Positions 39,499 to 39,739 of a stretch of 59,822 nt of DNA are shown in pieces (the first letter of the stretch is position 1; the number at the start of each line of letters is the position of its first letter). A program made the position numbers and the translations under genes. Source of the DNA: a virus; IMG/VR virus record IMGVR_UViG_3300017991_000120, positions 1-59,822 of that record; one strand, 5' to 3'. The notes under the pieces were generated by a model, which was given only the letters and a program-made list of their open reading frames with translations, did no database searches and was not told the DNA's origin.

Positions 39499-39739
39499 AA
39501 AGTATCAAGGCGTGGGCGTTGTTATAGCGTTCGGAGGTTCGAATCCTTCCGTCCCCCCAATTTTTTTCTACGTCAACCCTTCGGGGTCTATCGACCGTCC
39601 AACAGAAAAAAATAGGGGTCGCCGGTTCCCCTGAAACCGGCATTTAACATGGGGGACGTACCCAAGTGGACAAGGGACTGTTTTTAGGAAACAGCAATAG
39701 CATAAAATCGCAACGGCAAAATTCTTGATACTTTTTTAA
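39499..39739 (+). ncRNA. Y-RNA-like RNA 2 with permuted tRNA-Leu(TAG)-like domain
   Basis: Outer helix AAGTATCAAG/CTTGATACTT (10 bp), internal loop starting GCGT, inner helix CGTTG/CAACG, then TTATAG. Inside, tRNA pieces occur in the order T arm (39533-39549), 3' acceptor strand CGTCCCC (39550-39556), a ~95-base linker, 5' acceptor strand GGGGACG (39652-39658), D arm CCC/GGG, anticodon arm CTGTT/AACAG with loop TTTAGGA (anticodon TAG). Joined at the flanking ATAGC repeat, these form a complete type II cloverleaf with a short variable arm. Confidence 0.75.

Follow-up and report, generated by a model that had tools for sequence, protein, structure and literature searches.

A putative Y RNA with a circularly permuted tRNA head beside a Ro60-like gene of a tailed phage

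The window, by which we mean the whole stretch of DNA analysed, is a 59.8-kb virus record. It comes from a tailed phage and encodes a portal, a terminase, a major head and a tape-measure protein, while 7-deazaguanine modification of the phage DNA is suggested by genes for GTP cyclohydrolase I and QueC at 57151-59539. From 39158 to 39947 there is no long gene, and this stretch contains three RNA-like units, followed by genes for a divergent protein with a Ro60 fold and for an ARPP-1 protein. The Ro60-fold gene starts about 210 bp 3' of unit 2 and about 50 bp 3' of unit 3. Each unit carries one exact copy of GTTGTTATAG (at 39424, 39518 and 39766), a sequence found nowhere else in the window, and all three have end helices and predicted folds more stable than those of shuffled sequences (z scores below). 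A scan for sigma-70 promoters and intrinsic terminators returned nothing usable. Just 5' of unit 1, at 39361-39395, is a strong hairpin (AACGCGAGGCTC-tccgcc-GAGCTTCGCGTT) followed by T's, which could be a terminator although it is absent from the list of the terminator scan. The features of the locus are as follows.

39407..39488, (+) strand: Y-RNA-like unit 1, fold z -3.42, with no tRNA module; stems AAGCGAAG/CTTCGCTT (outer) and GGTTG/CAACC (inner)
39424-39433, (+) strand: GTTGTTATAG motif of unit 1, exact match
39499..39734, (+) strand: Y-RNA-like unit 2, permuted tRNA inside an outer and an inner stem; fold z -2.74 against shuffles
39499-39509/39724-39734, (+) strand: outer stem of unit 2, 11 bp, predicted; pair probabilities about 0.7-1.0
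39517-39521/39711-39715, (+) strand: inner stem of unit 2, 5 bp, predicted; pair probability 0.8
39518..39527, (+) strand: shared GTTGTTATAG motif of unit 2, corresponding to the TTACAG just 5' of the tRNA module in relatives
39533..39549, (+) strand: T arm of unit 2, GGAGG-TTCGAAT-CCTTC, by the permuted-tRNA detector
39550..39556, (+) strand: acceptor 3' strand of unit 2, CGTCCCC, with CCA immediately 3'
39557..39651, (+) strand: linker of unit 2, 95 nt; two predicted hairpins, ATTTTTTTCT/AGAAAAAAAT and GCCGGTT/AACCGGC
39652..39658, (+) strand: acceptor 5' strand of unit 2, GGGGACG, 7/7 Watson-Crick with CGTCCCC; then TA
39661..39676, (+) strand: D arm of unit 2, by the permuted-tRNA detector
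39678..39694, (+) strand: anticodon arm of unit 2, loop TTTAGGA with U33 and anticodon UAG
39746..39895, (+) strand: Y-RNA-like unit 3, fold z -2.90; stems AAAGCG/CGCTTT (outer) and GGTTG/CAACC (inner)
39790..39864, (+) strand: permuted tRNA-Thr-like module (CGU) of unit 3, detector score 36
39790-39806, 39812-39828, 39829-39848 and 39851-39864, (+) strand: anticodon arm, T arm, acceptor (capped by CUUCGG) and D arm of the unit 3 module
39947..41488, (+) strand: divergent Ro60-fold protein, 513 aa, helical repeat domain and vWA domain, by AlphaFold and Foldseek
41485..42504, (+) strand: ARPP-1 (PF20208) protein, Pfam E 2.8e-24; its pairing with this Ro60 branch is conserved

The first-pass annotation had described 39499-39739 as a permuted tRNA-Leu(TAG), and all of the parts it named lie where it placed them. 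From 5' to 3', unit 2 runs through outer stem, inner stem, motif, T arm and acceptor 3' strand into the linker, whose 95 nt and two predicted hairpins agree with the ~95 bases and two hairpins that had been claimed, and then through the acceptor 5' strand, TA, D arm, anticodon arm (UAG), inner stem and outer stem. A permuted-tRNA detector, for which a complete match comprises T arm, acceptor, D arm and anticodon arm, gave exactly two complete matches over both strands of the window, unit 2 (score 40) and the Thr-like module, and 31 complete matches over 7,575 first-order Markov strands, among which one reached 40 and two reached 36. ARAGORN missed the unit 2 tRNA in the native, unjoined window sequence; on copies rejoined in silico it called tRNA-Leu(tag) across a wide range of junctions, bearing out the claim that joining the flanks would yield a 7/7 paired acceptor and a cloverleaf. 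When unit 2 was folded in isolation, the acceptor helix fell outside the predicted optimum (pair probability 0.01) because G's of the linker compete for the acceptor C's, and the cloverleaf lay 3.2 kcal/mol above the optimum. Since CCA abuts the acceptor strand, there is a C at the discriminator position and CAA after it, an end that would make a poor substrate for LeuRS. Unit 3 encloses a tRNA opened between its D and anticodon arms, and the Rfam tRNA model matches it at 30.0 bits on the overlapping register 39766-39833.

The suggested tie of the permuted tRNA-Leu to Ro60 also held, by fold. Sequence searches of Pfam, PHROGs and the PDB did not identify the 39947 protein, with no match to Pfam TROVE (PF05731), and fold alone identified it. 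Its AlphaFold model (mean pLDDT 70.4, pTM 0.50; moderate confidence) has the helical repeat ring and vWA domain of Ro60. The two best Foldseek matches, both full length, were D. radiodurans Rsr (2nvo, E 2.3e-5) and the Ro60 of Thermus phage phiLo (9l5y, E 4.7e-3), and comparison with several Ro60 structures gave VIA Z 11-12 over about 390 residues. The vWA metal-site residues D343, S345 and S347 are invariant. Profile comparison with bacterial TROVE proteins reached the vWA part only, and weakly (probability 39, E 3e-4). Because the fold matches full length and the sequence profile reaches the vWA domain weakly, the modelled product is Ro60-like by fold and not TROVE by sequence. It thus resembles bacterial Ro60/Rsr along its whole predicted fold and differs from it in lacking a Pfam TROVE match and in travelling with ARPP-1. 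The Ro60-like and ARPP-1 gene pair is also present in L002 (a jumbo phage), L003 (an Alkaliphilus plasmid) and L024-L026, phage contigs included (L numbers are our handles for loci), and ARPP has been described in ADP-ribose-linked conflict systems (PMC9503650).

The first-pass annotation suggested that the flanks might be cut and joined into a free tRNA; this was not supported, as the flanks form the predicted 11-bp outer and 5-bp inner helices, which recur as a Y-RNA-like stem in relatives. The break does fall in the variable region, and both flanks do carry ATAGC, as had been noted; ATAGC is nevertheless no junction mark, because TTATAG is part of a motif common to all three RNAs, including the one without a tRNA.

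Single-sequence searches of viral contigs with the Ro60-like and DUF932 proteins found no close relatives, and alignments were needed; alignment-based searches gave 80 viral loci with Ro60-like genes, or 62 once identical copies were removed. A first scan returned 158 permuted matches on the Ro60 strand, a set that includes redundancy and false matches from tandem tRNAs, and 0 antisense. With normal tRNAs masked and linkers limited to 30 nt or less, 51 of the 62 distinct loci held permuted modules, 59 in all, and 55 of these lay upstream of the Ro60 gene. The acceptor was paired 7/7 in 50/59 modules. The D-loop GG was kept in 56/59, and the tRNA elbow is thereby preserved. Modules were opened in the variable region in 44 cases and between the D and anticodon arms in 9, some anticodon calls of the latter type being loose (for example L062 and L073). 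U33 is almost universal in translation-competent tRNAs; it was present in 21 of 37 distinct anticodon loops of the phage modules and missing in 16. Acceptors of relatives are often capped by 4-9 nt, many linkers being 4-6 nt long or tetraloop-ended, and a discriminator plus CCA stands at the linker start in 28/59 units (22/47 distinct linkers), where chance would give 1 in 64. Their flanks show an outer helix, an inner helix and then UUACAG or a close variant before the module (UUAUAG in the window), as in the common enclosing stem GGGAAAACGAAAAGTGTTTACAG...AAATACTTTTAAAATATTCCC. Of 55 modules, 43 had a motif of the TACAG/TATAG type in the 22 nt on their 5' side, the background frequency being 4.9%. 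True flanks formed better helices than mispaired flanks (median 19 vs 17, p 5e-7); the effect is modest, since stem sequences are shared among related units and pairing occurs in the mispaired controls as well. A normal tRNA with a CUA (amber) anticodon lies near the Ro60 locus at L024 6857-6929.

The point at which stem and tRNA are joined varies among units within one genome, as in the window, L062 and L026/L066. Two units of L026 are unpermuted tRNAs in which the Ro60 stem takes the place of the acceptor; a third has its opening in the variable region and a GUAA closure. We also searched the 62 loci for tRNAs in natural order whose acceptor 5' strand and anticodon arm are separated by a long insert. 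There were 31 with a Ro60 motif, in 24 of the loci, and 0 antisense; in these the stem interrupts the tRNA as a hairpin, in the D arm or close to it, and leaves the acceptor end free. An example at L084 4646 reads GGGGAGA-TAGC-...AAATACTAT...CTCTCTTcacaGAGAGAACTCGTAGTGTTTTCAG-TAAAGGTAAAGC-...-TCTCCCC-ACAAA, and such units occur in L084, L092, L096-L098, L105, L116, L122, L128 and L131, among others, with permuted units in the same genomes. A further natural-order tRNA, with an encoded GCCA end, lies at L002 862-998 (LR756500.1) and at the same place in L007 and L060. Its insert of roughly 64 nt between acceptor and D arm carries the Ro60-RNA motif AAGTTATTACAG; the Rfam tRNA model covers it at model positions 6-65 only, and the inserted stem is not favoured when the unit is folded alone. 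In jumbo phage LR756500, which has the gene pair but shows no Y-RNA-like unit in the gap separating it from the next gene upstream, this unit precedes the Ro60-like gene by about 3 kb and is likely the Ro60-linked RNA.

According to Chen et al. 2014 (RNA 20:1715), as that work is cited in PMC12282133, PMC9176250 and PMC4726728, the Y RNAs found close to Ro60 in bacteria and in phages mimic tRNAs. The Rfam consensus of YrlA (RF02553) consists of a stem, a T arm, an acceptor hairpin with a loop of few nt, UA, a D arm and the stem again. Unit 2 resembles it in lying beside a Ro60-fold gene, in having ends predicted to pair into a stem, and in placing T arm, acceptor, UA and D arm in the same order inside that stem. 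Permutation of this sort is thus a property of a known kind of Y RNA, and the expectation that a phage case tied to Ro60 would be new did not hold as to kind, since T-acceptor-D is already in the YrlA consensus. Unit 2 differs in retaining a full anticodon arm at the place where YrlA has its stem, and in a linker of 95 nt where the YrlA acceptor is closed by a few; the short acceptor loop and missing anticodon arm of YrlA are both foreign to unit 2, and unit 3 shares the short loop alone. The YrlA model gave no match in the window at E up to 10 (gathering threshold 69 bits). Because of this, the whole anticodon arm and a Ro60 branch missed by Pfam, we keep unit 2 apart: it is not a YrlA member. 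Sub-threshold matches to the YrlA model are abundant in bacterial genomes (L136-L155), and many are apparently junctions of tandem tRNAs, since the model runs from T arm to D arm.

Taken together, we consider that 39499-39734 encodes a Y RNA with a permuted tRNA head at a Ro60-like protein and is not a source of free tRNA, with a probability of roughly 0.84. The permuted order, the enclosing stem, the linkage to a Ro60-fold gene and the recurrence across phages are drawn from sequence and structure prediction, and from them we infer expression of unit 2, binding to Ro60 and a function of the head. We favour this reading because two permuted modules in one 500-bp stretch adjoin a Ro60-fold gene; because such modules recur inside a common stem pattern, mostly upstream of Ro60 and often 3' of a TACAG/TATAG-type motif; because the elbow GG is kept while U33 is often lost and the graft point shifts within genomes; because the Ro60 stem of YrlA likewise encloses parts in the T-acceptor-D order; and because abundant unannotated RNAs are reported upstream of an Rsr-like gene in a Listeria phage (PMC12282133). 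The ends of the transcript would pair into a stem carrying the Ro60-binding site, formed by the inner helix and the GUUGUUAUAG motif. The head would be a complete, circularly permuted tRNA fold, with the stem leaving from its variable region, and the Ro60-like protein of the adjacent gene would hold the stem and present the head. As a tRNA look-alike, the head may recruit or titrate proteins specific for the elbow, acceptor or anticodon arm of tRNAs; its role would probably lie in RNA degradation, repair or defence evasion during infection. A Y RNA of D. radiodurans tethers Rsr to PNPase (reviewed in PMC4726728), and YrlA has been suggested as a decoy for an anticodon nuclease in Salmonella (PMC7790460); either role could fit a phage. 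Counting against the Y RNA reading, unit 2 retains U33 and a normal UAG anticodon, and its linker is far longer than those of its relatives, among which it could be special; its acceptor helix lies outside the predicted optimum, and neither the YrlA model nor Pfam TROVE finds a match.

Bacterial Y RNAs being known tRNA mimics, the phage family offers natural experiments on the purpose of the tRNA head. The Ro60 stem is grafted onto the acceptor, the D arm, the junction of D and anticodon arms or the variable region, and a single genome sometimes combines more than one of these. A function that survives all such graft points must depend on recognition of the tRNA fold, chiefly its elbow, and not on decoding. 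New with respect to YrlA are the complete anticodon arm, the 95-nt linker and a Ro60 branch outside Pfam TROVE. Where permuted or arm-inserted tRNAs turn up in phages, a nearby Ro60 gene should be looked for before tRNA genes are called.

A variant compatible with the Y RNA reading, which we regard as possible but tentative for the family, is that RNase P and 3' nucleases cut the linker without ligation while the Ro60-bound stem staples the halves together, giving a product that could be CCA-tailed and perhaps charged. The excess of discriminator plus CCA at linker starts and the free acceptor ends of the 31 natural-order units speak for such opening, as does the precedent of bacterial permuted tmRNA genes, whose processing yields two RNAs that act jointly (PMC10085705). 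Against it, about half of the linkers have no CCA and many are very short or tetraloop-ended, the CCA of unit 2 comes without a discriminator and its linker competes with the acceptor helix, and CCA may be an ancestral remnant. Rather more doubtfully, stem and whole tRNA might be seen as one ring, opened at the stem in the permuted form and at the acceptor in the natural-order form with its Ro60 hairpin near or in the D arm. The acceptor would be functionally open in both, in the permuted form through cleavage of the linker, making these RNAs Ro60-tethered, possibly chargeable tRNA decoys.

We think it highly improbable that unit 2 is a true permuted tRNA gene of the algal style, its flanks cut and joined into a circle from which RNase P and tRNase Z would release tRNA-Leu(UAG) for translation. 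Rejoining does give a complete cloverleaf with U33 and a legal anticodon, but the flanks form a long predicted stem that is also present in a sister RNA without a tRNA, relatives have capped acceptors and lost U33, the discriminator is C and not A, and CUA is the rarest Leu codon of this phage (4%). No tRNA-splicing endonuclease for BHB motifs is known in bacteria. The permuted tRNA genes of algae and Thermofilum share with unit 2 a 3' half placed before the 5' half, a linker between them and a full cloverleaf once joined; they differ in that algal and archaeal permuted tRNAs depend on BHB splicing motifs at their junctions and yield free tRNA, the junction side of unit 2 being a long predicted stem and a conserved motif (PMC3978253). 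Decaying tandem tRNA genes with a permuted look arising by chance are hardly credible: false permuted matches do arise in tRNA-rich loci such as L059, but here the acceptor pairs 7/7 across the linker, one simulated strand in 7,575 did as well, and stem-enclosed units number two in the window and dozens in relatives, 0 of them antisense, with recurrence in 51 of 62 loci. A permuted two-piece tmRNA, which shares the permuted order and acceptor domain and is a bacterial precedent for linker removal without ligation, has a negligible chance of being correct, as the RF04321 match in the window (13.0 bits) is far under the gathering score of 47, a complete anticodon arm is a tRNA feature and the relatives are tied to Ro60 genes.

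Other Ro60-like loci carry stem-loop RNAs. In Alkaliphilus (L003) these lie upstream, with no clear permuted tRNA among them, and Nostocales Ro60-like genes of this branch have a conserved tRNA-less stem-loop RNA before the gene. A conserved stem-loop RNA, GGGACTTTGGTGCGACTTCCGAAC...GTCGTGCCGTCATTCCCC, lies upstream of the Ro60-like gene in L004-L006, L008-L013, L015-L020 and L022; its inner stem shows apparent compensatory changes by eye, and it had no Rfam match in the scanned loci. In Listeria phage P100 we take gp165, a DUF2828/DUF7788 protein, to be the counterpart of the Rsr-like CKA15_055. No convincing permuted tRNA lies upstream of gp165; at about 39100-39500 of L135, 5' of gp165, lie three repeated stem-loops that each contain CAGCAATTACTA or a close variant of it, and these may be the abundant RNAs reported for CKA15.
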